64,000 bases of DNA, taken from NCBI GenBank assembly GCA_014773175.1, contig VXCM01000135.1, positions 124,001 to 188,000 on the forward strand, given 5' to 3'. Both the position numbers and the translations under genes were made by a program. The notes under the pieces are model-generated. The model saw only the letters and a program-made list of their open reading frames with translations, was not told the origin of the DNA and made no database searches. Positions 8,635 through 56,071 of the stretch are shown here, one piece after another. Origin of the DNA: Lucifuga dentata (Eukaryota; Chordata; Actinopteri; Ophidiiformes; Bythitidae). Every line of letters begins with the position of its first letter. Position 1 is the first letter of the stretch.

Positions 8635-8765
8635 CCCGCTACGCCTGCACAGGCTGAAAGGCCGGGGGCACAAAGCCACAGGCTGTGGGGAGACAGAGTN
8701 CCCGCTACGCCTGCACAGGCTGAAAGGCCGGGGGCACAAAGCCACAGGCTGTGGGGAGACAGAGT
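8635..8765. other. Assembly gap (N at 8700) between two identical 65-bp copies
   Basis: Bases 8635-8699 and 8701-8765 are identical and separated by one N. The pattern is that of two contigs with overlapping ends that were scaffolded without merging, so one copy is probably artificial. Confidence 0.85.
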
Positions 8766-15472: not shown

Positions 15473-16029
15473 ATTCAGGTGATGTTTCTCTGGCAGTCCG
15501 AATCTTGGCATAATTTTCATAAGAATGCTGAAATGTGAACATAATATCAGTTTCAGTTATATGCACACACTATTTACCACACAAAAATTAATTATAATGT
15601 GCAATGTCCACATAGATTCCATTTACATTTCATTTGGCACATACAAAGTAATTGAAAGACTGCCCAGAACATGGCAACAAAGGGGTCAAGACAATTTACT
15701 CAATGACAGCAAGTGAAGGAGCAGCACATTACCTGGGAGAGCAGCTCATTTACTCTTTCCTGAATCAATGAATTCATATCATCCATGGAGTAGCCAGGGA
15801 CACGAATAAAGGTGTGCTCGCCATTCCCAGTCTCCAAATCCACAATCCTGTTCTTGATATCTTTTGCGTTAATGCTCAGAAGAATGCAAAAAGCAACGGA
15901 CGCCACTGAAGAGAAGAACGACATGATGTTCAGCAGTGTTGCGCGGCAATATTGTCGCTTCAGAGGCGCCACTTCTTTCTCCATCTTTTCCACGCACTTG
16001 GATGCTCCTCTCGCCTCCGCAGCCTCCAT
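15458..16029 (-). CDS. col25a1: Collagen XXV alpha 1, 5' end (coding exons 1 and 2)
   Basis: Partial gene for a membrane-spanning collagen with its N terminus in the cytosol. Exon 1 is 16029-15733: it starts at ATG and ends in CAG before a GTAATG donor, giving 99 residues in phase 0. Exon 2 is 15527-15458: 23 codons plus one base before a GTAAAG donor. The protein has a short charged N terminus, one hydrophobic helix at about residues 31-53 (LLNIMSFFSSVASVAFCILL) and a juxtamembrane stretch with IQERVNELL at the end of exon 1. Exon 2 encodes SYENYAKIRTARE, then ECNCPPG, which enters the first Gly-X-Y triplet. This closely resembles remembered mammalian COL25A1; COL13A1 and COL23A1 share the layout but not this exon 2. 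The collagenous exons must lie left of the window or hidden in the intron. An assembly gap with duplicated flanks abuts exon 2. Confidence 0.85.
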
Positions 16030-18193
16030 AACTACGATTCAACTATATGCGCTGTGGGGTGCAAACTGCATCTGACGCGGATCGCGGATCTGTGGCACAC
16101 TGTTCTGTCTGTGCGCCTCCGGCGCGACGTTCACGCGCGGTGACTTCTGATGACAGCGACAGATGAATGCGTGGAGCCCACTCCGCTCAGCCTGCAGCCA
16201 AACACACTCAAGCGTGGACCACCGCTCGCTGTGGCTCCTGCAAACTTGTTGCACCAATCCTCTCCACAGTGTAACCCGCAGAGGAAACTGCTATTATGCA
16301 CAATAAAATGCAAGTTAAAACTGTGAACACACCAGACAACGCGCAATGTAGCAAAGCCAGCAGCAGTACCACTTGGGGCAAATGCTTCCACGGTGCAGGC
16401 ATGCACCCCCTCATTATTACAAAAACACGCCTCCAAATCTGTCCGGGCTGATTAGCATAATTTATTGCGCCGTTCCTTTTGAGCTCTAGCAGTTCACTGC
16501 AATTACCGTAACTCAAGATGATCTTAAATTGTTTTGTGATCCTGAGATGTCCACTCATGGCACACCAGAACGCTGCGTAAAGACATGGTTACATTTATAA
16601 AAAATAAGATGATTCTGCTTTTATCAGCTGTTAAACCTTTTACACAACCACCATGCTGTTTAAAATTGATTAAGTGTGTTTTATACATCCAACGTACGGC
16701 AAAGTTAAGTGTTTCTTTGTGGCCATAGTGCTGCGTAAAAACGCACGTCATAACCCCACGCTGTTTTTATGCGCCTGTGTCTGCTTGCTAAGATTTGAGA
16801 ATGAAATGTCTAAATCACAATATTCACTTAGCACTCAAAATGTCAGAGAAGAGGGAAGATTATTGACTTTGTTCAACTGACCCAATGTGGGAAGAGACAC
16901 ATTCACAGACACAAATATCCTGAGCGCAGGTCTGCATCTGCTGTGGCGTCCAACCACTCCAGTCCGCTTTGGACTGTCTGAATTCTGACAAGTCAGTATT
17001 TATCTGTCGCGAATTGGTTACAACTGAATATAAAATGGCATTGTAATTGTCATTACATGACATTGTCAAAACTTCCAAAGATGTGTCTGAAGCAGTTTTA
17101 GAGAAGCTTATTTCTGTAAAATTCATATGTATCTTTTCTGAAAAAGAAAAAAAATAGATATTAAACTAAAATCTTACACTTAGCGTCTGAATGACACAAT
17201 GCTGATCTAATCCACTTACAAGCCTTTGGCACCACCGCCTGGCTTACTGTCATTAATTCCACACTGTCCAGTTGTGTTGATGTATATTTACTGTTGATGG
17301 CTACAATAAAATAATCTACTGATATACAGTAATAAAAAAATACTTAAATGTAGGCCCATTCATCTTAGATTAGTGAAATAATCCTCAAATGGTGAAAACT
17401 ATAAGAAGAGGTAAATTAACTAACACTGAACCATAGGATTATTCTTCCATTGCATTTAAACACTGATTCTCAGTTTCTAAAAACCAAAATGTTCCATTTT
17501 TGAGGTGAGCTTCTCCGACCTTTTTGCTGTTTGTGGATCCCAAAGGAGAGACGATCAATCACAACTCAACATCACTTTAAAGCCGAGAGTGCCATCTAGT
17601 GAACAAAACCCTACAACGCATGAACACCTGATGAAACAAGTTATTTTATATTATTGGGGTGTCATCAAATCACAGAATCAATTTAACAGACTTACTGGCA
17701 AATAAATGAGAATATTATGGGTCAAGATTAAAGTGTGTGAGTGTATATCAAGGCTTTGCTTTTTATTGATTTATTTATTTATTTTGGACATAAGACAAAG
17801 TGGCAGATTTTAATTTGAAGAACACAGTACATACATGACTGGATGACTTGTTTATATTTTTCTAATTGTGGCTGCTGCACTTCATGCAACATTCATAATT
17901 AGACAATCATCTTTAAACGTTAAACGGCGCAACAACAGCGCCATCCCTTGACAACTGCTCCTGCATCGCCCAGCGACGTTCAGAAATCCAGTGTTTATTT
18001 TTAGAGGTTCTCAGTCTCAATTTAACGCTTCTACAACACAAAACCCATGTTACAGCGCTAAATAATTCATGTGCTGGGCCTGGACAGAAAGCCGCAACAG
18101 GACTCCAAGGCGCACGGCGCAAAGACGCACAAGAGCCAACCGAGCGTTGGATTCCAAAACTATCCAATAAACCAGCTACCACACAATACAGCA
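16030..18193. promoter_or_regulatory. Intergenic region between divergent col25a1 and saxo1-like genes
   Basis: This 2.2-kb stretch separates two genes transcribed away from each other. Bases 16060-16220 are rich in CpG (for example GCGGATCGCGG and CGCGCGG), as expected for the col25a1 promoter or 5' UTR. A second, smaller CpG-containing patch at about 17925-18135 lies just before the SAXO-like start. The middle is AT-rich. No TATA box or other motif is convincing, and no transcript ends can be placed from sequence alone. Confidence 0.45.
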
Positions 18194-21100
18194 ATGAGGT
18201 GAGGTGATTAGTGCATTTTCTGTTAAACTATACAGGATGATACTTTTGTTAAGCTTATTCATTGCAAGGCTTTTATTTACAGAAGTGTGTAGTCAATAGA
18301 TTGTCAAATCTAAATTATTGGGGTATAACGTCTTTTCTGTGTCTTTAAATGCCATAAAAAATGCCAGTTTGGGGGGAGGCCTACCAGATTACAAAGCAAT
18401 ACAGGTTGTATTTCCCTTGGAAAAAATGACTGTCTAGTCCCTCTCTGGAGCAACTTTACCACAGAATAACTTAAAAAAAAAAAAAAAAAAATNAAAAAAA
18501 AAAAAAAAAAAATGCTATTCTTTACGTCCAGAATAACTAAAAAAAAATGCCTCTGCTTTATGTCCAGGAAACTGAGAGCCCCAACACCGCCCTACTCGAC
18601 CTCGGAGTACGCAGAGAAGTTCCGAAAGTCCCGTAACGTCTCAGCCAAAACGCAACAAAAGCACCAGCGGACGAACACTTCTAAGTAGGTTTCAGTGTAA
18701 CAAATTGCCACTACAGTAGCCTTTAATTATTTTAATCTTCATTTAAAAAATGCCAAGAAAACGTTTTGTTTACACTGTCAGTTGTAAAACGTTAGCTTAA
18801 TGTGTACTGCCAGGGAGGGGAGAAGTTCGATTAGACTGTAAAAATTGTAAACTTTGCGCACAGCTATTGGTAAATGTAGACCTCCCTTCTTTTGCTCACT
18901 TGTATTCTGTTTATATCTTTAAAGTCCTGGTATCAGTCCCTAAAATAAAATTTTAAAAAATTTTAAAACGTCATTATAAAACTATTTTGCACCTTACTTC
19001 ACGGGTCACACTGACGTTTATTCCTACCTGTAATGAACAGTCCATCATGAATTGCAGCTGGCAGCATGAGTGAACATCAGACACGGTGGTGAAAAGCATT
19101 CTGGGAAATGTAGGAAGTCGCTGATTGGGGTAGAACTTGACATTGCAAGATGAAGGACAAATACTCCAAATATGTAGGTCAAACTACAACACTGAACAAC
19201 AAGTTAATTCCTGGAATCTGTTGATGATCACTGGAACGAATGAATAACATTTTATATACATGATGTTAGCATATGATTTGTGTCAGTGATTTTCAAACTG
19301 TGAAACATGTACCACAGATGGTACTTGGAGTGGTACAGCAGCTGATACTTGAAATTTTTGAGAATCAAAATGATTGAAATTTATGAAAACAATTTAATAG
19401 TGAAAATTTATTTCAGGTAAATAGGTTTCACTATGAAATTGTTCTTCTCTTTTAATTAAGAATTCATTTGTTTTATTAAAACTTCTCTTCCAGTGTGTGC
19501 AAACTATATCCTTGGGTTGTAAGTTTGAGAAACACTGATTTCAATGTGTATATAGAAAATCTGGAATGATTTTTTCAATACTCTACCTGCAAGATTGGTA
19601 AACAAAATTGAACCAGATACTACATAAGCCAAAATAAGAGTATATAATTCATAAATCAAGTTTACCTCAGAGTCACTCATAAATTTTCTCTCCTTTATGT
19701 TCAGGAAGCCTTCTGCCTGTCAGAGAGTCCCCACACCACGTTCCCCGACCACAGAGTACCATGAGAAGTTCCGTAAGCCCCACCCCCCTTCAGCCAAAAC
19801 GCACCAGCCACAGGGGACAAACATTTTCAGGTAAGTTTCAGTGTACCATTTTATCACTAAAATCTTAAATCTTCATTTTAGAATGCCATGACAATGTTTG
19901 CTGTTTACAGTTTTAGCTGTGAAAAGTATGTTCAGTGTGTCTTAGCAAGAAGGAAAAAGTTCTGTGAAACGTAAAAATTGTTAACTTCACACACAGCTAT
20001 TGGTAAATGTAGCTTTATCTTCTTTTCATCTTTATACTTCTTTAAGGTTTGTTATCAGACCCGTAATATACAAAACATTATTATAAAACTCTTTTGTGCT
20101 TTACTTCAGAGTCACATGACAGCTAATTTATTCCCACCTGCAACTTGTAATAGTCCACAATGAATTGCAACTGGCAATATGACTCCAGATCAGAGGCTGT
20201 GGTGAAAGGCATTCTGGAAAATGTAGGAAATCGGCAATTGGATTAGAAGTTGACATCGGAAGATGGACAATAAATACTCCAAATGTAGTACAGAAAGATA
20301 ATTCCTGGAATCTGTCAATGATAAGTGGAATTAAGAATAACATTTTATATACATGAGGTTAGCATATCAGTGGTTCTAAAACTGTAGTATGTGTATAACA
20401 AATGGTACTTGAAGTGATCCCTGTACAGCAGATATTGTTTGAAATTTTTGAGAATCAAAACGTTTCAAATGTATGGAAACTTTTTAATACTGCAAAAATA
20501 TTTTCAAGGTAAACAGGTTTCACTTTGAAACACTTTTAAGTTCATTATTCTGTATTAATTAAGAATTCATTTGTTTTATTAAAACTACTCTTCCAGTATC
20601 CACAAACTATATCCTTGTGTAATTTGTTCAAAAGTTTGAGAACCACTGATTTCAATGTATATATAGAAAATTTGGACCATTTTTTTCAATTGTCTATCTA
20701 CAAGATCAGTAAACAAAATTGAATCAGATTGTACATAAACCAAATTAACAGTATACAATTTATAAAGCAACTTTACCTCAGTCACTCATAAAGTTTCTCT
20801 CCTTTATGTCCAGGAAGCCCTCTGCCTGTCAGAGAGCCCCCACACCACGTTCCCCGACCACAGAGTACCATCAGAAGTTCCGTAAGCCCCACCCCCCCTC
20901 AGCCAAAATGCACCAAAAGCACAAGCCAAAGGGGACAGACATTTTTAAGTAAGCTTCGGTGTAGCCTGTTATCACTTCAATTTTAAATCTTCATTGAAAA
21001 ATGCCATGAAAATGCTGCTGTTTATAGTATTAGTTGTGAAATGTATGTTGTGTGTCTAACAAGGAGGAAAAAGTTCTGTGAAACATGTAAAAATTGTTAA

Positions 21101-24100
21101 CTTTACACACAGGTACTGGCAAATGTAACTCTATCTTTTTTTTCCTCAATTGTGTTCTCTTTATACTTCTTTAAATTTTGGTATCAGACCCGTAATATAC
21201 CAAACTCTTTTGGACTTTACTTCACAAGTCACACTGACAACTAATTTATTCCACCTGCAACTTTTAATGGTCCATAATGAATTGCAACTGGCAACATGAC
21301 TCTAGATCAGAGACTGTGGTAAAAGGGCATTCTGGGAAATGTAGAAAATCGCTGATTGGATTAGAACTTGACATTGCAAGATGAAGGACAATAAATATGG
21401 CATTAGAGTGCTCCCTGGTGGCTTGGCAGAGATCACGTGAAATTTCTTAGAATCCAAACAATTAAAATCTATGGAAACGCCAATTGTGACAAATTATTTA
21501 CAGATTAATCGGTTTCATTAATAGTTTTGTTTGATTATTATCCTCTGTTAGTTAAGAATTTGCTTAAAACAGCTACATAAGCCAAAAAAAAAAGAGTGTG
21601 TAATTCATAAATCAACTTTACCTGAGAGTAACTAAAACATTTTCTCTCCTTTTTGTCCAGGATGCTCTCTCCCACTCAGAAAACCAATACATCGGCCCAC
21701 CTGACCACAGAGTACCAAGATAGGTTCCGTAAACCCCGTCCCAGTCCCCATTCGGTCCTCTCAGCCAAAACGTATGAGAGGTGGGTTNGTTCCGTAAACC
21801 CCGTCCCAGTCCCCATTCGGTCCTCTCAGCCAAAACGTATGAGAGGTGGGTTCCAATACTCTTTTTTGTTTCCATGTTTCCCTCACTTGCATCTTTTCCT
21901 TGCGCCTTAGTCCCACATGCTTAAGAATTGATTTGTTTAAAACAAGTCTTCCAACGCGCACACGTCCTTGTGTGTCAATAACTTCTCACACTCGTGCTAC
22001 AAACTTCTCAGTTTTCCATCACAACACATGAACTCGAGGTTTTTCTGTAGTTTTTCTGCGAGTTGGTGGCTTGTAAGTGAGGTGGTGCATAGATGTTTGC
22101 TTAGAGGTGGTAATTTGTTCAAAGAGTTTGAGAACCACTGATTTTAATTAGTAGAATTTGGGGCCAAATTTTTCAAAACCCTAGCTGCAAGATTGGTAAA
22201 CAAAATTAAACCGGATGCTGCATAAGCCAAAATAAGAATTACGCAATCAATAAAGCACAAAATGCCAAATCTCAGGTCACATTTCATTTCATATTTTTCA
22301 GATCACATTATGTGACCCAACATTCACCAATGGTCCATTTTTTGCCACCTGGAGGCCAAATGAGATGTACCAGCAGTCAAGACGATCTTGATTACACTGT
22401 GGCAAACCATATGCTATCCAAGACAGAAAAATCCCTGCAGCAACTACTTCCACCAGAAACCGTGGTTTACCAACCAGTGAACCAAGGTAAGCACCATGGA
22501 AATCACTCAAAAATAATTTGTGGCTGTAATATCATCCCATATCCAAAATGAAATTCATTCTTATGGTGTATTTTTTTTAAAGATAATTTCCAAGCATGGG
22601 ATGCACACAAACGCCAACGATACAAGCTGAGTTACAACTTGAAACTCAACCAGCATAAGCATCCTGTTAAAGTGACTGAAAACTTCAAACCAGTCCCACT
22701 GCTGAGAAAATCATTACTACCTTTTGATGGGACCACCAACTACAAATCTGATTATGATGCTGATCTGGTGCGGCTCAGGACACTCAGGGAAAAGCCTTTG
22801 AACCAGTCCACCAGCGCTTCACATAGAAGAGTCTTTAAGAGCCATGAGAACGGCAAGGGTCTTCCACAAGAACCTTCAATGCCCTTTCAAAATAAGGTGA
22901 TAAGGGATATAAACCAAGCACCTACTGATGAGATCAGTGAATTCCATGATAAATTCGAGACTTGGCCCCTTCAACAAAAGTTAGATCACAAAGTTCAGGA
23001 GTACAGCCCAAGAACAGGACACATGGAATTCCTTTCCACAACAACTGCCGACTACATGCAGCACAAGTGCAACTGCCCCATGTCAGCTCGGCCACATGTA
23101 CAAGGGGAAACAATTCAGACAAAGCCCACCATGAACGATGAATACAAAGCTTGGGACACAATCCGATGCCCCCATATTGTCCATGAAGAACAGCGAGAGA
23201 GGCCAAGGTCCTTTAAATCAGAGGTGATGCTAGAGAGAAATCAAGCCCCATCTGAAGACATAAGTGACTTCCATAATAAATTCAACACTGGGCCCCTTCA
23301 ACCAAAGTTCCATCACAAAGCTGAAGAGTACAGCCCATCTACAAGACACATGGAATTCCTTTCCGCAACACATGCCGACTACATGCCGCACCAGTGCCGG
23401 CGCCCCAAGTCAGCCCGGCCATATATAGAAGCCTGGGTGAAAAAAGAGGAACCAGTTCAGGCAAGGTCCACCATGAAGGAGGATTACAGAGCTTGGGATA
23501 CAGTCCGAAGCCCCCCTATTGTTCATACAAAACAGCTGGAGAGAAAGCCAGCACCTTTTGAGGGGATCAGTGAATACCATGATAAATTTAAGACCTGGCC
23601 CCTTCAACCCACATATCATCACAAAGCTGAAGAGTACAGCCCATCATCAGGTCACATGGAATTCCTTTCCACAACACATGCCGATTACATGCCGCACAAG
23701 TGCCAGCGTCCCAGGTCTGCCGGGCCACATCTCAAATCTTGGGTGAAAAATACGGAACCATTTCAGGCAAGGTCCACCATGAAGGAGAATTACCGAGCTT
23801 GGGATACAGTCCGAAGCCCCCCTATTGTTCATAAAGGAGAGCTGGAAAGGAAGCCAGCATCTTTTGATGGGATCAGTGAATCACATGATAAATTTAAGAT
23901 CTGGCCCCTTCAACCCACATATCATCACAAAGCTGAAGAGTATAGCCCATCAAAAGGTCATATGGAATTCCTTTCCACAACACATGCCGACCATATGCCG
24001 CACAAGTGGCAACGCCCCAGGTCTGCTGGGCCACATCTTGAAGCATGGGTAGAAAAAGGGGAACCTTTTCAGGCAACGTCCACCATGAAGGAGGATTACA

Positions 24101-27100
24101 GAGCTTGGGATACAATCCGACGCTCACCTATTATCCATAAGGGAGAGCTGGAGAGGAAGCCAGCACCTTTTGATGGGATCAGTGAATCCCATGATAAATT
24201 TAAGACCTGGCCCCTTCAACCCACATATCATCACAAAGCTGAAGAGTACAGCCCATCATCAGGTCACATGGAATTCCTTTCCACAACACATGCCGATTAC
24301 ATGCCGCACAAGTGCCAGCGTCCCAGGTCTGCCGGGCCACATCTCAAATCTTGGGTGAAAAATACGGAACCATTTCAGGCAAGGTCCACCATGAAGGAGG
24401 ATTACCGAGCTTGGGATACAGTCCGAAGCCCCCCTATTGTTCATAAAGGAGAGCTGGAAAGGAAGCCAGCATCTTTTGATGGGATCAGTGAATCACATGA
24501 TAAATTTAAGATCTGGCCCCTTCAACCCACATATCATCACAAAGCTGAAGAGTATAGCCCATCAAAAGGTCATATGGAATTCCTTTCCACAACACATGCC
24601 GACCATATGCCGCACAAGTGGCAACGCCCCAGGTCTGCTGGGCCACATCTTGAAGCATGGGTAGAAAAAGGGGAACCTTTTCAGGCAACGTCCACCATGA
24701 AGGAGGATTACAGAGCTTGGGATACAATCCGACGCTCACCTATTATCCATAAGGGAGAGCTGGAGAGGAAGCCAGCACCTTTTGATGGGATCAGTGAATC
24801 CCATGATAAATTTAAGACCTGGCCCCTTCAACCCACATATCATCACAAAGCTGAAGAGTACAGCCCATCAACAGGTCACATGGAATTCCTGTCCACAACA
24901 CATGCTGACTACATGCCGCACAAGTGGCAGCGGCCCAGGTCAGCCAGGCCTCATCTCGAAGCCTGGGTAAAAAAAGGGGAACCATTTCAGGCAAAGTCCA
25001 CCATGAAGGAGGATTACAGAGCTTGGGATACAGTCCAAAGCACCCCTATTGTCCATAAGGGAGAGCTGGAGAGGAAGCCAGCACCTTTTGATGGGATCAG
25101 CGAATCACATGATAAATTTAAAACCTGGCCTCTTCAACCCAAATTTCATCACAAAGCTGAAGAGTACCATCCATCTACAGGACACATGGAATTCCTTTCC
25201 ACCACACATGCTGACTATATGCCACACAAGTGGCAGTGCCCTATGTCAGCTAGGCCACATGTAGATGCCTGGGTGAAAAAAGAAGAACCAATTCAGGCAA
25301 AATCCACCATGAAGGAGGATTACAGAGCTTGGGATACAATCCGACGCTCCCCTATTTTCCATAAGGGAGAGCTGGAGAGGAAGCCAGCACCTTTTGACGG
25401 GATCAGTGAATCCCATGATAAATTTAAGACCTGGCCCCTTCAACCCACATATCATCACAAAGCTGAAGAATACCACCCATCTACAGGACACATGGAATTC
25501 CTTTCCACAACACATGCTGACTACGTACCGCACAAGTGGCAGCGCCCCAGGTCCGCTGGGCCACATCTTGAAGCCTGGGTAAAAAAAGGGGAACCATTTC
25601 AGGCAAAGTCCACCATGAAGGAGGATTACAGACCTTGGGATACAATCCGACGCTCCCCGATTTTCCATAAGGGAGAGCTGGAGAGGAAGCCAGCACCTTT
25701 TGACGGGATCAGTGAATCCCATGATAAATTTAAGACCTGGCCCCTTCATCCCACATATCATCATAGAGCTGAAGGATACCACCCATCTACAGGACACGTG
25801 GAATTCCTTTCCACAACACATGCTGACTATATGCCGCACATGTGGCAGCGCCCCAGGTCCGCTGGGCCACATCTTGAAGCCTGGGTGAAAAATAGGAAAC
25901 CATTTCAGGCAAAGTCCACCATGAAGGAGGACTACAGAGCTTGGGATACAGTCCCAATTCTGCCTATTGTCCATAAAGGAGAGCTGGAGAGGAAGCCAGC
26001 ACCTTTTGATGGGATCAGTGAATCACATGATAAATTTAAGACCTGGCCTCTTCAACCCAGATTTCATCACAAAGCTAAAGAGTACAGCCCATCAAAAGGA
26101 CACATGGAATTCCTTTCCACAACACATGCCGACTACATGCCGCACAAGTGGCAGCGACCCAGGTCCGCCAGGCCACATCTCGAAGCCTGGGTAAAAAAAG
26201 GGGAACCATTTCAGGCAAAGTCCACCATGAAGGAGGATTACAGAGCTTGGGATACAGTCCCAAGCCTCCCTATTGTTCATAAAGGAGAGATGGAGAGAAA
26301 GCCAGCACCTTTTGATGGGATCAGTGAATCGCATGATAAATTTAAGACCTGGCCCCTTCAACCCACATATCATCACAAAGCTGAAGAATACCACCCATCT
26401 ACAGGACACGTGGAATTCCTTTCCACAACACATGCTGACTATGTGCCGCACAAGTGGCAGCGCCCCAGGTCCGCTAGGCCACATCTTGTAGCCTGGGTGA
26501 AAAATAGGGAACCATTTCAGACAAAGTCCACCATGAAGGAGGACTACAGAGTTTGGGATACAGTTCGAAGCCCCCCTATTGTCCATAAAGGAGAGCTGGA
26601 GAGGAAGCCAGCACCTTTTGATGGGATCAGTGAATCCCATGATAAATTTAAGACCTGGCCTCTTCAACCCACATATCATCACAAAGCTGAAGAGTACAGC
26701 CCATCAACAGGTCACATGGAATTCCTTTCCACAACACATGCCGACTACATGCCGCACAAGTGGCAGCGACCCAGGTCCGCCAGGCCACATCTCGAAGCCT
26801 GGGTAAAAAAAGGGGAACCATTTCAGGCAAAGTCCACCATGAAGGAGGATTACAGAGCTTGGGATACAGTCCCAAGCCTCCCTATTGTTCATAAAGGAGA
26901 GATGGAGAGAAAGCCAGCACCTTTTGATGGGATCAGTGAATCGCATGATAAATTTAAGACCTGGCCCCTTCAACCCACATATCATCACAAAGCTGAAGAA
27001 TACCACCCATCTACAGGACACGTGGAATTCCTTTCCACAACACATGCTGACTATGTGCCGCACAAGTGGCAGCGCCCCAGGTCCGCTAGGCCACATCTTG

Positions 27101-28728
27101 TAGCCTGGGTGAAAAATAGGGAACCATTTCAGACAAAGTCCACCATGAAGGAGGACTACAGAGTTTGGGATACAGTTCGAAGCCCCCCTATTGTCCATAA
27201 AGGAGAGCTGGAGAGGAAGCCAGCACCTTTTGATGGGATCAGTGAAACCCATGATAAATTTAAGATCTGGCCTCTTCAACCCACATATCATCACAAAGCT
27301 GAAGAATACAGCCCATCAACTTGTCATATGGAATTCCTTTCCACAACACATGCTGACTACATGCCACACAAGTGCCAGCACCCCAGGCCAACTGGGCCAC
27401 ATCTGGAAGCCTGGGTGAAAAATAAGGAACCATTTCAGGCAAAGTCCACCATGAAGGAGGATTACAGAGCCTGGGATACAGTCCAAAGCCTCCCTATTGT
27501 CCACAAAGGAGAGCTGGAGAGGAAGCCAGCAACTTTTGATGGAATCAGTGAATCACATGATAAATTTAAGTCCTGGCCCCCTCAACCTAGATTTCATCAC
27601 AAAGCTGAAGTGTACCACCCATCTACAGGTCAAATGGATTTCCTTTCCACAACACATGCTGACTACATGCCGCACAAGTGCCAGTACCCCATGCCAGCCT
27701 GTCTACATGTAGGAGCCTGGGTGAAAAAACCTCAACCTTTTCAGTCTAAGTCCACCATGAAGGAGGATTACAAAGCTTGGGACACAATCCAATCCTACCC
27801 CATTGTCCATAAAGTAGAGCTGGAAAAGAAGCAAGCACCTTTTGATGGGATCAGTGAATACCATGACAAATTCCAGACCTGGTCCCTTCAACCAAGATTT
27901 CATCACAAAGCTGAAGACTACAGCCCATCAACAGCACACATGGAATTCCTTTCCACAACTCATGCCAACTACACACCGCACAAGTGCGAGTGCCCTACAT
28001 CAGCTGGACCACATTTGGAAGCCTGGGTGAACAAAACCAAACCATTTCAATCTAAGTCCACCATGAAGGAGGACTACAAAGCATGGGACACTATCCGATG
28101 TCCTCTTACTCTCTGTAAAGGACAGCCAGAGAGGCCAAGGTCCTGTAAACCAGAGGTGACATTGGAGAGAATTGCAGCACCCTTTGATGGCATCAGTGAA
28201 TACTCTGACAAATTCAAGACCTGGTCCCTTCAACTCAAGTACCATCACAATGATGAAGAGTACAGCCCACCAACAGGACACATGGAATTCCTTTCCACAA
28301 CACATGCCGACTACATGTCTCTCAAGTGCCATCCCCCCAGTTCACCCTGTCCACATGTAAAAGACTCAGTAAAAAAAAAGAAACTACTTCAGACAATATC
28401 CACTATGAAGGATTCCAAAGTTACGGACACATCCCCAAGCTCCCCTGTTGACCATAAAGAACAGCTGGAGGGACCAAACAAATACTTTGTGAAAACCACA
28501 ACCTATCGATTAGACTATACACCTAAAAATACTAAACGTGCTGTCAGCTGCAAACCCACACTAAGGCCTTTGATCTACCAGCCTATGTTCGGACAGAATA
28601 AGGTTCGGACAGAATATCAGTCTAGTTATTGCAAAAATGAGAAATTTAAGCACATCTCCACAGGCAGTGAAGGAGACAGGCTGTACAAGGAAGCCACAGG
28701 GACTCATCCAGAGTGTGGCATCTGTTAG
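18194..28728 (+). CDS. saxo1: Giant repeat-expanded SAXO1-like axonemal microtubule protein
   Basis: Proposed exons: 18194-18198, 18568-18684, 19705-19830, 20814-20948, 21661-21780, 22302-22486 and 22583-28728, ending in TAG. All junctions keep frame and give about 2,277 residues. SAXO proteins bind and stabilise ciliary microtubules through repeated Mn modules. Here modules are of the form FDGISESHDKF, MEFLSTTHADY and FQAKSTMKEDY. Residues about 342-2196 hold 18 blocks of about 102 residues, each with three modules. Single modules flank the array (FDGTTNYKSDY before, KTTTYRLDYTP after). The three-module order resembles a segment of remembered human SAXO1, a protein of under 500 residues, so this one is several times longer. 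The Cys-rich N terminus typical of the family is not seen. The start ATG, five bases before the first donor, is inferred; an upstream start exon is possible. Confidence 0.8.
18473..18512. other. Gap N at 18493 inside a poly-A run
   Basis: A single N sits in a run of A bases in the first SAXO intron. The true homopolymer length is unknown. Similar N-in-homopolymer positions occur at 2485, 8529 and 60799. Confidence 0.8.
19284..19537. mobile_element. hAT-type MITE in SAXO intron (copy 1)
   Basis: The element starts CAGTGATTTTCAAACTG and ends GTTTGAGAAACACTG, an imperfect inverted repeat of the CAGTGGTTCTCAAAC type known from hAT (Charlie-like) elements. It has no coding capacity. It was probably present before the surrounding 1.1-kb unit duplicated. 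Confidence 0.7.
20368..20648. mobile_element. hAT-type MITE in SAXO intron (copy 2)
   Basis: It starts CAGTGGTTCTAAAACTG and ends GTTTGAGAACCACTG. It resembles copy 1 along its length and sits at the equivalent place in the next duplicated unit. Part of the same element, without its ends, is visible at about 21410-21570, and its 3' end is visible at about 22110-22140. Confidence 0.7.
21724..21852. other. Assembly gap (N at 21788) duplicating 64 bp of a SAXO exon and its donor
   Basis: Bases 21724-21787 and 21789-21852 are identical. The repeated piece contains the end of the fourth small exon and its donor (GAGAG before GTGGGT), so two equivalent donors appear. The correct gene should contain only one. 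Confidence 0.85.
22918..28480 (+). repeat. Array of 18 coding repeats, 306 bp per unit
   Basis: Most units start with the codons for APFDGIS; starts fall every 306 bp from about 23554 to 27838, with longer spacing at both ends. Within the array, the region about 23600-24170 recurs nearly unchanged at 24210-24780, and about 26092-26682 recurs at 26704-27294, each a shift of exactly two units (612 bp). The first two and last two units are the most diverged. Copy number in a gapped assembly may be underestimated. Confidence 0.9.
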
Positions 28729-30433: not shown

Positions 30434-34727
<4,294 letters not shown>

Positions 34728-34857
34728 CCTCTGAGTGCAACTGGAACAAAGCACGCAATATACATGGCACATCAGTAAGAGTGGCACCTACAACTGGTGT
34801 GTTCATCTTCAAGAGGGAGATTTTCCCTGATACATTCACGAAATCCAGTTTGAACTG

Positions 34858-38360: not shown

Positions 38361-40618
38361 NAAAAAAAAAAAAAAAAAAAGTCATAGCCATGTGAGTGAG
38401 TTTTTTTATGAGAACATTGAGTTCTCATTTTAACTGGGAACTCACCAAAGTTTCTCACACCTGAGCAGGTGAGGCTGAATATCTCTCAGCGCCTCAGTGC
38501 TTACATCTGTCCTTGTCAGATCCAGCTCTGATATGCTCCCCTCTGTGAGGTTAAGGAAGTACTTGATGACATTATAATCCATAGGAGACAGAGTTTGATC
38601 GCTAACGTTTATTCGTAGTGTTTTTGGTTGCACAGCTGTGGCCAGTGAAGGGTCCTGCTGCTCAAACAGGCAGTGTAACTGATTTAACATATGGGCCCCA
38701 TCCTCACAGAGTGCTGTAAGATCGCTGATCATCTTCTGGCGATAGGAATCCACTTTATCTCTCTGGCAACACAGCCCGACCTGCCTCGACAGCAGCGCAG
38801 CATTGCGTTCAGAGAGGATTCCAGACAGGAAGCGGCTGAAAAGATCCAAGTGCCCATTACCGTTCCCCTCCCCAGGACTGGATGTGTGCTGAAGTGCAGC
38901 AGGTAATGGCTGCTCTGTTACTGCACAGTAAACTGCAGCAAAGAACTCCTGAATGGTGAGATGTGGAAAGGAATAAACATCTTCAGTGCAGCCTGGTTCT
39001 TGTGTCACCGTCTTATCGAGGAAGGTGCTGACCAGGCTGCATCCCTCTAGGATTGCAACATCTTGCTCACTGCTGTAGAATAACGTTTGGTGCTCCATCA
39101 GCTTTACAAAGGCCAGTCTACCAAGCTTCAGCACGACATCAGACAGCTGCTGCACGGCTGTGACTCGTTGGTCTTGAAGAGCTTTTTCAGCTCTGACTTG
39201 CGTATGAGAGCGAAGCAATGCCACCAAATATTGCACATAAATATCTGTCATGGTTTTAGGGCTTTCTCCACAGAGATCTTTGCTTTCTTTGAGGATGCAA
39301 CACACAATGTAGCAAAATGCAGGTATGTAACATAGTGTCAGCATCAACTCATTTGCAGTCAATACTTTGAACATCCGTTCAGCGAGGACATTGTCTTGGA
39401 AGTAACGTTGAAAGAAATCTTGCACTTCAGTTAAGGAGAAGCCAGAGATGAGCACAAAGCGATCAATGCAGCCCACAGAGATGTGACTGATAGCTGAAGG
39501 TCTACTTGTGAGCATGACAGAAGCATTTGGTAGCAGTTCACCCTGCATCAGGCTCCCAAGGACCTCAACCACCTCAGCGTCTTCTTCTGGTTCAGTCACG
39601 AATACATCCACGTCGCAGCTGGTGTAGTGCCTAAACTCATCAAAGCCATCCAAGATGATCAACAACTTGCTGTCATTGGCCAAAATGTTGTCCAGTTCCT
39701 TAGCTAGGTGCCTATTTTTACGCAAGACCAACTCTCTGAAATTTGTTGGTTCATTGATGAGATTCAGGTCTCTGAAGGTCATATGGATGATGAAGTCAAA
39801 TGTGAGATAGTCCTTGTTTCTCCCAAAATCAAAGAGCATCTTCTGCACCAGGATGGTTTTTCCAATACCAGCAACTCCTGTCACCAGCACTTTCTTGACA
39901 GGGCCATTTCCATTTGTGCTTGCAAAGAGTTCAGCTGGTGTGATCTGCTTGTGCACCGTTGACTTCTGCTGCAAAGAAAGTCGCTTTTGTCCAAAAGTCA
40001 GCACCTCATGTCTTTTTATTTCTAAGCCCTGGTGTCCATCAACTAACAGGAGATTGACATAATGTTCAGAAAAAAGGATTTTCTCTCCATGTCGAGTGTT
40101 GTAGTAGAGCATGGTCTTGCTCCTGTGTGCAAGGACTGCTTTGTGCTTTAGTTTGACTTTGTTATATTCTGAGAAAGAGATGATGACTATGTTACACTCA
40201 CACCTTTAATTCCTATAACCTCAGTACATGAATTATGCTAAACAGTTTTAGCTCACAGCATTATTCCCATTCCAAATGTCTCTTGTATGTACATGAATGA
40301 CTTACCTGTAGACTGAGGCTGATCTATGTTGTTTTCTTTGGAGTGTGTCTGTGTTTCTTGCTGATGATGACTACGAATGGAGATAAACGTCTCGGCTGCC
40401 TCCTCGCCTTTACACTCCAGGATATCCAGCAGCTTTCTTACTCTCGCCCGTGGCCCCAGATGACATAGCACGTCTTCATGATCATCACGAGTGAACACCT
40501 CTGCGTTTACCATGCTCTCCAGCAGAGAGTCGATCCAACTCTCGAGTTCATCCACAAGGGAAACTCGCAAGACCCTGATTGCCTTCAAACAAGAATTACA
40601 TCCATCTACTTCCACCAT
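36413..40618 (-). CDS. NOD-like receptor: CARD, NACHT, LRRs and an unknown C-terminal domain
   Basis: A cytosolic innate immune receptor of the NLR family. Exons: 40618-40306, 40168-38446, 37854-37771, 37612-37529, 36902-36825 and 36740-36413; phases agree and give about 869 residues. Residues 1-95 look like a CARD (NOD1-like pattern with RARVRKLLDILECKGEEAAE). Residues about 106-180 resemble the helical segment before NACHT in fish NLRs. NACHT has Walker A GVAGIGKT at 202-209 and Walker B LLIILDGFDEF at about 273-283, both intact. Two 84-bp exons and one 78-bp exon encode LRRs (for example LGENSLNMDTVKVVADVLL). The last exon encodes about 108 residues that are not LRR. It could belong to the NOD1/NLRC group, but I cannot name an orthologue. 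An LRR exon could have been missed in the introns. Confidence 0.85.
38000..38230. mobile_element. Tc1-like MITE fragment in NLR intron
   Basis: The left end reads TATACACTACAGGCCAGAAG followed by TTTGAGGTCACCC, matching the common fish Tc1-type end (tatacactac...aaaagtttggggtcac, recalled). The right end is not clear. Confidence 0.55.
38329..38380. other. Poly-T, N (38361), poly-A junction
   Basis: A long T run meets a long A run at a single N inside the NLR intron. Such an inverted homopolymer junction is more likely a scaffolding join than real sequence. Confidence 0.7.
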
Positions 40619-42911
40619 ATCTATTCTCTGCTCTCAAGTAAGCCTCTGCAAAATCTTCTCATTGTGACAATTTATATCCAAAGTTCACAGCTAATGGAGT
40701 AAAGTTTTTCGTAGTTTAGGCATGTCCTTGAATGTGTCTCTCTTGAAGTGCAGAGAAGTGTGAAGTAGTGCATGTGTAATGAAGGAGGAAGTTTGTCACT
40801 TGCTAGAACTCTGACAAAAACTTGATTATTATGTAAGTATCACAAATCAACCTTGAAGAGCTTGTTTTTCTAGTTCATGTCAGAACTTCCCTCTGCAGCT
40901 GTAACCTCCACTTCTGTTTTTCTTCTTCTGCTACACTCCTCCATTGAAACTAATGGATTATTAGATAATGACTTTGATTTCCATGTAACTGTCCTACAAA
41001 AATTAACCAACTTGAGTGCATTGACTGTGTAATTCAGTCAAATTGTTAACACAAGAAAAAAAAAAAAACAAAGATTACCAAAGGAATGTATCTTGTTTTA
41101 TTATTTTATGATCAATCAGGCATGAGCAGAGAGCAACATCAAGTCTCCAGCAGAGGGTCCCCATTGTATGCACATGAAATAGCATCAGGGCAATGAATAC
41201 TCAAATCCCGATGGAATTATTTACAAAACTATCCACAAGAACACAAATGAAAATAAATAGTTCAAAGACAAAAATATCTACATACCTTAAGAGCATATGT
41301 AGCACATTAACGTTAAATTTAATCTCATCTCACTGACTGTCAAATAACCACACTTCAATGAAAGGCCAAATAGTCTCTGGTTCAAGTACGTGTTGTACTT
41401 CATGATGTTTGCTAAGCATTATATAACCCAGAACATAATGTCTTAAGTGCAAACCCTGTCTTATCTTCCACAGTAATTACATAAATAATTATTTTAAAAG
41501 ATCCCTACTGTTTTGACCCAGATCTGAATCTTACCCAGTGACTATTTTTGGGGGGAAAAAAAAAAAAAAAAAAAAAATTAAAAGCAAGTCTGGTTCTTGC
41601 TGAAATCTCAAACTACAAGCAACATATACAAAGAAAACCTACATGTCATTTGATTGAGTGAGTTGTATTAGCAGGGGACTATTAAGCTGACCTCAAATGT
41701 GCTATAAAGTCACAAAGTGGTTAAAGGGATTTTTTTTTTTACAAATATCTTTCCAAAAATCAGAAAACCAAATATATAAACACTGAAACTTTACAAACAA
41801 GATATAGATATAAAAACTCTACAAGCCATGTTCACAACATAGACTTGGAGTTCTGAGTGCAAAATAAGTCATTTTTCCTAAAATTTGCTTCAGTCGTACT
41901 CCTCCATTAGTGCAATTCATGCAACAAAACTTTTAGTGCTGTCCTGCCATCCATCTTACTGTAGTTAAAGCTACTGGAAATCCAAATTCTTTTAGTCAAG
42001 TGAGGCATTTTTCAAATATATGTAGCTCATACCATGTTTAAATATTATACCCAGTATTTAATATAAAATTTTACCCCCAATTCATAAGTTAAACCTGCTT
42101 AACAATAATGTTTTTGGAAACCACTATTATGACAAGCAACAAATATCCAGTGGTTAGTACAAATTAGTTTCAAAAATTTTGAAAGTTTATTTTAGGAAGT
42201 GGAATGATGGCGCTACAGTAGTGTATGATGGTGCAATCCCTATTACACTGTAAAAGGTGACAAGTTGATCTTACTTTAAAAAATTCAGGAAACCAATTGA
42301 AAAAGGTAAGCAAATATAACTATTAGTCTTAAGTTATGTTTACTTTTTGTCTATTTGAACTTAAGACTATATATATATTTACTTACCCTTTTCAAGGCAA
42401 TCGGTTTCCTAAATTTTTTTGAAGTAAGATCAACTTGTCACATTTTACAGTGTATTCTGATTTCTAAGGAAAACCCCTTTGATGCAATATCTCTTTATGA
42501 ATTCCCCTTTTAGGCAGGAAACCATGATGTCACCTTATTTTACATATCTGTTTCTTATGCTTCTTTGTTGCTGAGTCATTTTTCTACAGTTTGGACAGCT
42601 GTTGACATGAACTTGATTTTCTTTTTTTTTTTAAAGTAAAACTGAAGCCTTCATTGGCAGTGATGTCCCTTCTCTGAAAACAATACTTTCAAATTCAGAT
42701 TCACCCACTGAGGAAAGTGGATCACAACCAGTCTAGTTATGACCATCTAAACATTCCTCCACACTCAGGTATCCCAATCCAAGGCTGTCTATCCAGGACG
42801 GCTGTGAGCGTTAAGAGGGAGGATAGAGGGTTTCAAGTCTCTCGTTGGCTGTCTGGGTACCTTTCCTGAACCTGTCCAGATTGTCCGTGGTCCCCCTCTC
42901 ACGTCCTCATC
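40619..42911. other. NLR upstream region and adamtsl1 3' UTR / intergenic
   Basis: This 2.3-kb stretch separates the NLR start from the ADAMTSL1 stop; both genes run leftwards. The part nearest 42911 must include the ADAMTSL1 3' UTR. It contains a Tc1/mariner-type MITE (42246-42452), an A run at about 41557-41577 and A/T-rich sequence. No open frame or RNA gene is convincing. Confidence 0.5.
42246..42452. mobile_element. Tc1/mariner-type palindromic MITE with TA target duplication
   Basis: The element starts CACTGTAAAAGGTGACAAGT and ends with the reverse complement of a closely similar sequence (ACTTGTCACATTTTACAGTG). It is flanked by TA on both sides (42244-42245 and 42453-42454). The arms of about 80 bp pair imperfectly around a short centre. 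There is no coding capacity. Confidence 0.8.
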
Positions 42912-45900
42912 TCAGGTGTTTCTGCAGGAGCGACAACAGCGGTTCTTAAACTGGGGCAGCGGGCAGAGCTCCAGCTGTCGGACCTTCTCACAGTACCTTG
43001 AGCTGTCTCGACACTCTCCCGCTACAATAAACAGATGATACCATTCACTATCACATTTACTTACAGGTTATTCAAGAGAATAAACGTTTTGAAAGCAACT
43101 TTGCTGGCCAGATACTCAAACCAAAATAACATTTGGGCAAAAAATGCACACAGTAGTAAAAAATGCACACAGCTCGAGCTGGTTTTCAGTCCCGAATTTT
43201 CTTTTAGTTCTTCCTGTCTCACTTATTCACTTGCTGTGCCTATGTGGCATTTAGGGGAAGTTGGAAATCAGAAATGTGCTTACTCCATTTCTCTTTGTGG
43301 TCATGGCATCATGTGGGACTGACAGCAACAAGCAAGTGTTAACAGCTACACAACATCCAACTCTTATTAATCAAAATTAGATTAGCATTTTGGATTTAAT
43401 CTTCCTGTTTTTACCTTTAAAGTTTGGTTGTCAGAGGAAATACAAAAAGTGCCTTTAATATTTCATAATAGAACCTCATGCTATCAACTTGCCATCAATG
43501 CATTTTTATCTCACCTCTTCCACAGGACAAAATATTACACCGCTGCCAGCTTGGTGGGCGTGGAATCCACATGCAGAGAAGTTCACGTGTGGCCTTGCCA
43601 GTTCGACGGTGCACGCAGCTCACCTGGCGCGACTGAAAACCATGCCGTCCACAGGTGGCAGTGCACTGTGTCCACGGGCCTACGTGCCAATACACAGCAC
43701 AAGCCTCTGTGGAGCAATTCTTTAGAGAGCTGGGCCTGCAAAATATGCACAACACAAATGGGTTTCAAGGTTGTCAGATGTTTTCATGGCATCCAATTCC
43801 ATTTGTCATCCAGTGTGGGTTTTTTTGTACATCATCAACGTATTCATACTCTGATATCCAGGTTCTACATTGTAAAATTGTTTACAAAATTAATAATTAG
43901 TTACTAATTATGTGCATGCAATGACCATACTTGCCTTTGGAGTCCACTGCACATTCTGTGTGGGACTTTGCTGCCATTTGTGTCTTGGCAGTAAACATGG
44001 CGGTGCTGTGTGGCCAAAATGGGACCTCCACATTGGCTGTGACACTAAAACAGAGATTTCATCATAATGAGAAGCACATTCAGTTTAATATGAATATATT
44101 TTCTTTCAAGCTACTATCAGGCTTTATCAGCAAAATAGCTTTTAGCTCGTCACTTGCAGCATGTGTATCACTACACGAGTAGTTAAATAGACAAAGAATG
44201 AGGTGTGGACGGTGAACAGCCTTGGTACTTCTACGCCTCCTGAGATTTGTTTCTGGTCAGTATTAAGTGGACTCACCAGTCCCCAGGGAGTAGTTACCCA
44301 TCTTGCACAGGGCAAAAGGTTGCATAATCTGCTGTTAGATGGTTTCTTCCCTGTACCAAGGCAGTGCCGGCTCTCCACCTCGCTGGCCCTGTGCTGTGGA
44401 CCCCTCATGCAGCTGACTCTCCTGCTCTGGGACCCACTTCCACAACTGGCAGAGCATGGCGACCAAGGCGCCACTCCCCACCTGATTTATTAACAGAGGA
44501 CAAGTGAACAATGTCACCTAAAGTTGAATAATTAAAAAAAAAAAAATTCAGTTAAGTTACTCAAGAAAGTGCAGATTCGTGATAGTCTTGAAAGAATCCA
44601 CATAGAACAACAAATCCACACAATGAAATAAAAACTTTTGATCCAAGCAAAAGATGTAGCCTGAGGGATTTTCATGGGGAAACTGGGAATGTGATTAAAA
44701 GAGAGACTGAGAGACAAGACTTGAAACTGGTCTTACCCTGCTGGCAGATGAAAGCCCCATAAAACAAGCTCACTTCACCTGCCTGCATCATTACATTTCA
44801 TGACAATGCTTAGTGCTTTTAAAGTGTCCATATGTATGTGTTATGAATTAAGAGTGTATATTAGATAGAAGGTGTGCGACAAAGTATCTGTCAGTCTGTG
44901 TTGCATATGTGCACGTAATAATTAGGAAACCCACTATTCCAGGTAACAACAGCATAAATAACAGCATAAATATGCAGTAGCAGCAAAGTACCAGAGGTGG
45001 CAGTCTTGTCCGTGGCAAAGCTCAGCTGACTGGCTGCTGTTCCTCTGCTCAGAGCAAATGGAACCACAGTTTCTTTTTTTACCACCTGAAAATACAATAA
45101 AGAGAGCATGTGGTCTATGTGGTCCTGGATATTGGCAAAAATCAAAATGGAAAACTTGCTCCAAGAAGAACCCTAAAATGAATTCTCCAACTTGTTTTAA
45201 ATACTGTGTCTTTGCAAAAACAATTGATTTTGAAAGATTAGGGGATTTTGGCAAAATAACAGGAAAACTAAAATATGGCTTTATATTTTGGAAAATGGTC
45301 AGTTGCGTTAACATGTATTAGGCTTAAACATGCAAAATCACTAGTATGGTCCTTTAAACTAATTGTTAACTCGAATTATGGTTTAGTTAAATAACATTTG
45401 CGAAAAGTTTCTGCATATGAGTATCTACCTGAAATGTGCAGCCAAGACGACAGAGCGTTGGATCCCAGACGGTTCCTGGCAGTGCAGGTGTACAAACCCT
45501 CATCCATCTTGCTTGGAGACTGGATCCTAAGTGAGCCGGTGGGCAACAGGTCTACTCTGCCGCCACAAAGACAAAACAGAATATAAGCCATTTCTTTCAC
45601 AAACAGCTCAGCTCATCAAAGTGATATGCAAGGAGTCACTCTCACCTGTTGTTATAGTGCAATTCTTTTCTATTCTTTGTCCAGGTTAGGATTGGCTCAG
45701 GGTTCCCCAACGCCTCACACCTCAGCTCCAAACTGGCAACTTGTTTCTGCAGCACAATTGGCATTCCCACATTAACGACAATCTCAGACGATGATGTCGC
45801 AATGACCTTCCTGGGTCTCTGGATTATCGCTGGACTTCTTGGCCTGCTTGTGTGGGTTTTGATGTTCGGTTTGTAAAGGAGGGGCCCTTGCATGGAAGAT

Positions 45901-48900
45901 TCTGCGCTTTCCGGAGGGTGAAGAGTAGACTCATTGTTTTCACCTTGTGTCACGGTGAGCTCATTGAGCAATTTAGCAATGAGTTGTTCAGCCTGTGGTC
46001 CTCCGAGGCCTTCGGAGAGGTTGTGTGTGATCTCATCCAGTCTGTGGGTATCGGCGATGAGTACAAGGGAGCCGGAAAGTTCTGAGCTTCCTCTCTCATC
46101 TTCCAGGGTCGACCTGTTCTTTTCACTGGAGTGTGATTTATCATTGATGTCCTTTTCATCTTGAACAGAGCCTTTGAGTTTGAGCAAACGCTCGACGATG
46201 CTGTCATATCGGTTGAGGGAGAAACGTAGCTCCTGAAATCTTTCTCCTGTTGAGGCCACATCTGGCTGGACTCCACATCTGGCTGGACTCTGTCTGTCTG
46301 GGAGGAGCCATGACTCTGCTACCTCTGGCACAGAGATCTTCTGCTTGCTGCCAATGATCTGCAGGATAAAAGTTTCCCGTGCCTGGCCTGCAATGCATGT
46401 GTAGATCCCAGCATCAGATGCGCGGAGCTGCTGAATCTTGATGTATCCTAGTGAGGTTATGGAAAGGTGTGGCAGGCTGACTAGGGGCCTCCCCTCTTTC
46501 AGCCATCGGATATGGCCCTTCCGGAAGTGGCGAGTTGGGCAGCGAAGGACCACAGTTGTCCAGGGAAGAAGATAGGCATAACCTCCCACCACCACCTGCA
46601 ACTTTTTGCCCTTCCTCCACTGGATATAAACCTTCCTTTGGGCCAATATGGTGGGGTCAGGCTTGACAACCTCTACTGTGACAGTCTCTGTAATGAAAAT
46701 GAATAGTCTAAGAGAACAGCGTCATTGTTATTTTGTACTAATTTCCTCCCCTGTGCAGTGCAGCTGAACTAAATGGAGCCAAACAGAGTGTCTCTTACTC
46801 TCACAGAGCCTGAGGGAACACGGCCGGATGCCGGTGGGCCGAGTCTTCAGGGGACAATTCTCAGGATCCATGGTCCAATATTGCCCATCCTCTCCTTGTT
46901 TCCTGCAGACCGACTGTAGTCTCTGAACGCCATGTCCACAGGTCACTGAACACTAGAAGATAAATGAACATGATATGAATATGATCAGACCCACTGGAGG
47001 AGTTACTGTAAATAAGTAGGCTGATCCCAGGTAGAAAGAAAGAAAGGCTACCTGGGACCAGTCAGTTTTAGCCCATTCAGGTGGGCACTCTTTTTTGGCA
47101 CAGGACTGCTGGTTTGCGGGTCTCTTGGAAGCGCAAAAGGTCTCAGGGAGCTCCAGCATGCTGCCGTCTGCCAGCCGCTGTTTGCACAGGACTGCCCTCC
47201 TCTGGAATCCACCACCACAGCTCTGGGAGCACTGCAGCCATAAAAAAGCCAAACATGGGTTTAGATAAGCAATGTGTACTTTGGACAATTAATCTATCTT
47301 TCCTGATGGGAGTCTTACCTGTCCCCAGTCACGTGAATCCCACGCAGGAGGGCAGTCAAAGCGGTTGCATGCTTGGACAGGACTGGGCTTGGGGGTGTGA
47401 CATTCTGTGTCTCTCAAAATCTCTGTCTGGTTGCTATCCCTAGAGGGCTGGTGGGTGCAAGCCACGGTACGGGTCATCAGTCCAACTCCACAGGTAGCAG
47501 AGCATGAACTCCATATACCTGTTTCCCACCTGTGAATATGATATTTACAATCATCTTTTATCATTTTATATCATAGCTACAGGTTTATCAAACCAGTAAT
47601 TCTGTAATCCTCAAGGCAGATATGCAATGCGAGCTTTTCTTGAGAAATGACTTCACCACCAGATTTCAGTTTGCCATTGATATATCAGTTATTATCCCTG
47701 ACAACTTCCTGACTAATCAGTGTACTTCATCATATGTATACATACTGTACACATGCAGACTATTATCTAGCCAGCAAAGAGTGCAGTCAGGAAATGCAGG
47801 CCTATTACTTGATATTTTTGTTGATCTCCTGACAGGACACTCTTACAGTTATATAAATGTGTAAATTCATGAAAGTGAATACGAGTGAAAATGAAAATTC
47901 AAGGGGCCAAAGCCAGGCAAGTTTATATTAAATCTCCTATTCAACAGTTTGATATTTGAGAAATCTCTCTGGCATACATGTCTTAACCCATATTTTCTCA
48001 TAACTCTTGGAATATAAATTAATGCATATCAATATTTTTGGTGTACTGAGTTGTTCAACATGGTTTTAAGATGATCAATCCAGCATCAAAGTTTTCTGAG
48101 AGTATTCCAATCTTGCAAATGCTGCAGCATGTATCTAAGAACATCTAAAGATGACACCCACTCTATTTCTTGCTTGACAGATTAACCAATATTTCAAAAC
48201 TATTCATATTTACACAAGGGTCCAGGGACTGAGGAGAATTTGGAATGAAGCTTGTTTCTGCACCAGTATTATACTCAAAGCCAAATCCTATAGCTGCTTC
48301 CCTTCAGAGGGAACAGTATCCAAAGAGTGTAGCTTAATATGGGAGGGTGAGGAGGCCTCTGGGAGGGAGTAAAGGGCCAAAGGAAACAAGCCCAATACAG
48401 AGTTTGTTGTGCCTGAAAACAAGACTCAAGGCCTGGAAAAACAGGCAAGGCCAGGCTGCAAGCCTCTGGGTTTTCTGACAAGAGTGTGAGTGGTGGAATA
48501 CCGACACTACGCATGGTGTTAACTTGAAACGTGTGGCCTACCGCAAAATCCACTCACCATTTCGCCACGACTCAGATGTATTAAACAACATGCTATTATA
48601 CTGTTTAATGGTATAGATATTTCATCTTAAGATTTATGTGTGTGGAATTTTAATGTTTTACACACAAAAAAATAAAGAGATGAAGAACTTCTGCTATATT
48701 TCCTGCACACTGCATGGCCCTCTCTGCACATCCAAAGTTATTCCCAATAGACGACAGATTAACCAAAGAGCTATAGAAATAATTTGATTAAAACCACAAT
48801 AATGTAGACAACTTCTTCAATAAACTAGAATCAGAATGCTGTAATAAACAGCATTTTCCAATAAATTTCAATGTTGCTTTATAATTGCTGCTGCAATTAC

Positions 48901-54779: not shown

Positions 54780-54823
<44 letters not shown>

Positions 54824-56021: not shown

Positions 56022-56071
<50 letters not shown>

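Follow-up and report, generated by a model that had tools for sequence, protein, structure and literature searches.

Mn proteins are believed to pin the microtubule lattice together one dimer at a time. Among them, SAXO1 and SAXO2 carry at least 10 Mn motifs each and, according to the available text of PMC9564825, are the proteins most likely to partner SPACA9 in the lumens of human ciliary microtubules. In trypanosome TbSAXO the modules MnL-1 to MnL-5 suffice for microtubule binding, and a need for more than two modules is considered possible (PMC3280300, available part). Here we describe a gene in a 64,000-nucleotide stretch of Lucifuga dentata DNA (contig VXCM01000135.1, positions 124,001 to 188,000 of the forward strand; hereafter the window), which its sequence identifies as a ray-finned fish member of the SAXO1/2 family. 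It shares with SAXO1/SAXO2 (PF05217; 8ou0_D) the family profile, the block order, a pitch of 33-37 residues and the C-terminal modules, but it differs in extent, since 22 of the 23 relatives found, of 321-520 residues, have one strong block, whereas here the blocks number 14-18 and as many as four exons encode an N-terminal module.

Longer or more variable arrays have been described in more distant systems. In apicomplexan SPM1 and its homologues, tandem Mn repeats of ~32 residues follow the protofilament with an 8-nm period; in SPM1, a Toxoplasma protein related by motif, the 32-residue repeat fills the density of one 8-nm step and sets its short helix on the interface within the dimer, one repeat per dimer is predicted for the protein and its homologues, and correct localisation requires four or more repeats (PMC8144581, available text). 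Unlike the gene described here, SPM1 has conserved ends of its own and many fewer repeats, and it sits on cortical rather than axonemal microtubules. Trypanosome MARP-1 and MARP-2, with about 50 repeats of 38 residues on cell-body and flagellum microtubules, indicate that such lengths can work (PMC12114266, available text); the unit found here has 102 residues. Both SPM1 and MARP are likened to this gene by mode of working only. The SPM1 homologues, whose copy number varies between species from 5 to 13, and MARP-1, with its 50 repeats, are precedents for variable or long microtubule-binding arrays. MAP6 and MAP6d1 also share the Mn motif and microtubule stabilisation, but MAP6d1 has two Mn motifs (PMC12228683, available text). 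No report of a vertebrate SAXO1 expansion of this kind was seen among the open-access papers listed.

The three-module array and its SAXO identity

The features of the main exon are as follows.

22583..28728 (+): main exon, 6,146 nt including the stop codon, with conserved SAXO modules, the 18-block array and a SAXO-type C-terminus; PF05217 at E 7.3e-150
22927..28491 (+): array of 18 blocks of ~102 residues with 54 module positions, located by motif and supported by Tandem Repeats Finder
28492..28728 (+): C-terminal SAXO-type modules TTTYRLDYTPK and TEYQSSY and the stop codon, judged from the sequence; by eye like the C-termini of the Centroberyx and Genypterus homologues

The main exon extends from the first base past an AG acceptor (22583) to the last base of the stop codon (28728), inside a stop-to-stop frame of 2,058 codons (22552-28728, +). 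Blocks were delimited by motif in the translated exon and numbered as units 1-18. Units 2-16 are each exactly 102 residues long, unit 1 has 109 and unit 17 has 114, and unit 18 merges into the C-terminus; Tandem Repeats Finder reports a 306-bp period with 15.8 copies at 23263-28088 and 0% indels. Each block contains three Mn-type modules, typically SESHDKF, STTHADY and STMKEDY, spaced by 33/35/34 residues in the array core, and the final F/Y is retained in 18/18, 16/18 and 17/18 copies of the three modules, respectively (51/54 in total). The protein contains 45 strict [TS][TS]x4[YF] motifs, compared with a mean of 3.6 (maximum 9) in 1,000 shuffles and 1 in the reversed protein; with the stop-free frame, this count shows that the array is not due to chance.

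The repeated Mn modules, at a pitch of ~32-35 residues, are a trait of SAXO1/2, and the Pfam SAXO1-2 profile matches 18 stretches of the exon with 500.5 bits against a gathering cut-off of 26.5. Among solved structures, a sequence search at E 0.01 yields a single relative, 8ou0_D, annotated as 'Stabilizer of axonemal microtubules 1' (E 7.6e-15). Further Pfam matches inside the array, to KCNQC3-Ank-G_bd and DUF7753, are taken as putative matches to repeat composition. A preliminary description had proposed a SAXO gene with 18 three-module blocks of ~102 residues in a single uninterrupted exon at 22583..28728; the frame, the motifs and Tandem Repeats Finder bear out the block structure, and the Pfam score bears out the family assignment.

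The main exon is a constrained coding sequence, and its modules are under more constraint than its linkers. Across its 2,048 codons no stop falls in the SAXO frame, compared with 59, 166, 37, 131 and 86 in the other five; the median ratio of nonsynonymous to synonymous substitution rates (dN/dS) between units 2-17 is 0.29 (117/120 pairs, excluding three pairs with no synonymous change); and the pooled ratio of the corresponding proportions of differences (pN/pS) is 0.20 in modules (36 columns) against 0.46 in linkers (66 columns).

The gene is probably the SAXO1 orthologue. TSP1, Ig and ADAMTSL1 (PF24484) domains are encoded by opposite-strand open reading frames (ORFs) downstream, at 45.6-57.0 kb, and human SAXO1 is, we assume, adjacent to ADAMTSL1. 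In the assembly (598 Mb, 8,189 contigs), where only the best candidates were scored, all 10 matches to the window exon used as a protein query lie on the array's contig, and all 18 matches to camel SAXO2 lie at this locus (best 11 candidates scored). The N-terminal cysteine-cluster motif 1 described in the available part of PMC3280300 was not recognised upstream among the tblastn matches listed with 23 homologues as queries, in which a 20-residue exon could be missed; one fish homologue (P0022) likewise has no cysteine cluster by eye.

N-terminal exon copies and neighbouring genes

Upstream of the array, an exon encoding the TTEYxxKF module occurs in four tandem copies, a second expansion within the same gene that the preliminary description did not mention, and is followed by a further SAXO exon.

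18568..18684 (+): N-terminal exon c1, TSEYAEKF module, 117 nt, phase 2-2; acceptor TTTATGTCCAG, with an ATG that could alternatively be a start codon; donor GTAGGT
19705..19830 (+): N-terminal exon c2, TTEYHEKF, 126 nt, phase 2-2; donor GTAAGT
20814..20948 (+): N-terminal exon c3, TTEYHQKF, 135 nt, phase 2-2; donor GTAAGC
21661..21780 (+): N-terminal exon c4, TTEYQDRF, 120 nt, phase 2-2; diverged (69.5% to c3)
22302..22486 (+): SAXO exon with the SHYVTQ... module, 185 nt; aligns with fish SAXO1/2 homologues; AG acceptor, GTAAGC donor

All four copies (18568-21780) have an AG acceptor and a GT donor, and their repeat unit takes in intron sequence (73-83% identity by blastn). Between c2 and c3 the exon is 92.9% identical (126 aligned bases), against 88-89% for the flanking introns. 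A single N at 21788, just past the c4 donor, is accompanied by a 64-bp duplicated overlap, and the duplicated stretch lies partly inside c4. If all six exons are spliced together, the joined model has a terminal stop only and predicts a protein of ~2,275 residues (start codon excluded), 266 kDa and isoelectric point 9.3, which would be about five times the length of known relatives. The joined frame also stays open in 6/6 tried combinations with N-terminal copies dropped. Because the acceptors of three of the four copies contain an ATG, these could instead be alternative first exons. Near 22645, just past NLKLNQ, the SAXO gene of the window is missing ~14 residues (one module) that other fish carry behind NLKxN.

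The window also contains the following neighbours.

15700-16038 (-): ORF with no Pfam match, which we take to resemble coding exon 1 of the transmembrane collagen COL25A1
32234-34787 (-): La-domain exon, with the La domain at 34476-34787; presumably LARP7
38442-40633 (-): NLR immune gene with CARD, FISNA, NACHT, winged helix and HD2 domains
43495-61210 (-): ADAMTSL1-type gene; the three ORFs scanned here encode TSP1, Ig and ADAMTSL1 domains; outer limits set by eye

Origin and copy number of the array

The homologues retrieved with a 504-residue query were compared with the array using unit 7 as a probe, which finds one strong block (33-67% identity) in 22/23 homologues, none in P0023 and 18 in the window exon. 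In 13 of the 22, an additional significant match of more than 70 residues occurs at 22-32% identity (two such in P0012), and these weaker matches are read as out-of-register alignment to neighbouring modules. The pitch of the homologues, checked in 6/23, is 33/34-37/34 residues. Long relatives were not found with a 2,048-residue query among candidates of 1,126-3,584 residues (0/2,702 at E 0.001) or with a 1,040-residue query among candidates of 572-1,820 residues (0/5,568), two length-limited searches that had no positive control of that length and could miss unpredicted or fragmented long relatives. In a short, midpoint-rooted unit tree, which gives no date for the edge units, the blocks of four other fish share one side of a branch (95/89), units 2-16 cluster (87/89), and the diverged edge units 1, 17 and 18 are placed outside the group of units 2-16. 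In the SAXO protein tree the window clusters with Genypterus, Scortum and Sebastes and with one row that has no name (99/98); this grouping, the homologues and the FISNA domain of the neighbouring gene all mark the DNA as that of a fish. Given the single strong block in nearly all homologues, the failure to find long relatives and the unit tree, the expansion is most simply interpreted as derived and lineage-specific, and it appears unique among the sequences searchable. The single-block state that the preliminary description had given for mammalian SAXO1 is thus recovered in the relatives found, and the 18-block length, which if shared across vertebrates would have pointed to an ancestral array, is seen in none of the 23 homologues found.

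Within the array, two tandem duplications of two blocks each stand out.

23560..24783 (+): units 3-4 and their copy 5-6, 612-bp two-block duplication; units 4 and 6 identical in DNA, 3 and 5 at 99.0%
26008..27231 (+): units 11-12 and their copy 13-14, 612-bp two-block duplication; 12 and 14 identical, 11 and 13 at 98.0%; 534-bp exact repeat

Near-identity at an offset of +612 extends over 23534-24293 (760 bp) and 25963-26634 (672 bp), with 6 mismatches each. If the assembly is right here, these recent events suggest an unstable array, which would fit a neutral account, in which the array was lengthened by unequal crossing-over with no functional effect, the protein does an ordinary SAXO job, selection merely removes broken modules and copy number drifts among individuals. 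The diverged edge units around a similar core are the usual picture of unequal exchange, and the expansion occurs in 0/23 homologues. Set against this account are the stronger constraint on modules than on linkers and the lack of any indel in the pitch of units 2-16; we consider it possible, though not the expected explanation. The module constraint and indel-free pitch fit use of the modules, which is not proof that module number matters.

The same duplications raise the question of whether mis-joined contigs inflated the array. Of 12 single-N joints in the window, 5 (at 8700, 15406, 21788, 51796 and 54338) are flanked by 64-66-bp exact duplicated overlaps, 5 lie in homopolymer runs and 2 in neither; the pattern looks like that of a short-read graph assembly, and the overlaps, a sign of imperfect merging, are probably unmerged contig ends, an artefact that inflates sequence locally. 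The identity of units 4/6 and 12/14 and the 534-bp exact repeat point the same way. On the other side, the stretch between the N at 21788 and position 38361, array included, contains no N; exact repeats in the main exon reach at most 89 bp once both 612-bp duplications are set aside, so that at least 14 units are distinct sequences; and the protein-level genome matches (10/10 and 18/18 among the best candidates) are confined to the array's contig. We regard inflation of the array by mis-joined contigs as unlikely. The exact count is not secure: 14 blocks are firm, and the other four rest on two near-identical duplications in a draft assembly. Of the 18 blocks first proposed, all are present in the assembly and 14 stand firmly, and we give the number as 14-18.

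A possible luminal staple and its weighing

The reading we favour, with moderate confidence, is that a SAXO block has been amplified to 14-18 copies and an N-terminal module exon to four, and that the protein most likely serves as an extra-long staple inside the lumen of ciliary or sperm-tail microtubules. The three-module block would have been amplified inside one exon through unequal exchange, and the N-terminal module exon would have been duplicated in tandem. By analogy with relatives, each Mn module would place a short helix where the alpha- and beta-tubulin of one dimer meet, and the pitch of 33-35 residues would take the chain one dimer (8 nm) onward along the protofilament; luminal binding and one module per dimer are drawn from the literature on relatives. 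With more than 50 modules, a single molecule could then reach across up to ~340-440 nm and dissociate slowly, the gain being avidity and continuous coverage, provided that every module binds and that array length has a function. By the linear rule, 42-54 array modules would cover ~340-440 nm (PMC8144581, available text), and an ordinary protein with ten or more modules would cover 80 nm or somewhat more.

Several observations weigh against this reading. The first module of each block is degenerate, with SE or SD where the strict syntax has two T/S, and the terminal aromatic is absent from 3/54 modules. The N-terminal copies give no clean signal of constraint, because between c1 and c2 the exon (78.4%) is less alike than the intron (81.0%), and the copy number is tied to a draft assembly with duplicated overlaps at 5/12 single-N joints. 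AlphaFold2 on two units predicted no structure (mean predicted local distance difference test score, pLDDT, 33.7). As far as the available texts go, the authors of the SPM1 study did not commit themselves to in vivo binding by each of the six motifs, and FAP363 distributes its six Mn motifs over two protofilaments (PMC8144581); the Mn density of human cilia was not assignable with certainty to SAXO1 or SAXO2 (PMC9564825); and an equivalent was not found in a mouse sperm doublet structure, perhaps for reasons of resolution (PMC10663601). Since SPM1 binding in vivo and the path of FAP363 leave the one-module-per-dimer rule unsettled, 340-440 nm is an upper figure. SPACA9 was unmatched in the genome by an exon-blind search in which 14/14 controls were also unmatched, a result that says nothing either way.

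A more specific proposal would be a vertebrate microtubule inner protein that on its own makes up a continuous luminal filament of ~60 tubulin-binding modules and that grew in two-block (six-module) steps of 48 nm, equal to the axonemal repeat, keeping the register of the doublet lattice, so that the lattice selects which duplications survive. Both recent duplications comprise two blocks, six modules and ~48 nm, which is suggestive of such a step, but two events are too few and may be assembly artefacts. A two-block higher-order repeat was examined and rejected: the high lag-2 similarity among units 2-16 (permutation p 0.0005) is lost when units 5, 6, 13 and 14 are dropped (p 0.43; 0.19 for units 3-15). 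We regard stepwise growth of this kind as quite unlikely.

A molecular ruler running along the axoneme, as first suggested, is unsupported, because 54 modules at 8 nm would reach ~430-440 nm, far below the tens of micrometres of a fish sperm tail; even the narrower version, in which the number of repeats fixes how long one particular microtubule segment of a few hundred nm becomes, such as a distal singlet or proximal zone, and which the regular pitch, the zero core indels and the predicted span would suit, is highly improbable, given a copy number that appears recently changed and a 48-nm order that disappears with the recent duplications.

The array bears on how module number shapes the action of Mn proteins, a question to which, as far as we are aware, natural variation this large in a vertebrate has not been applied before. 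As a natural experiment, a fish that exceeds its relatives several-fold in modules makes it possible to ask whether binding, cold stability or luminal occupancy scales with module number, and what number of modules a luminal protein can bear before it fails to load into a growing microtubule.

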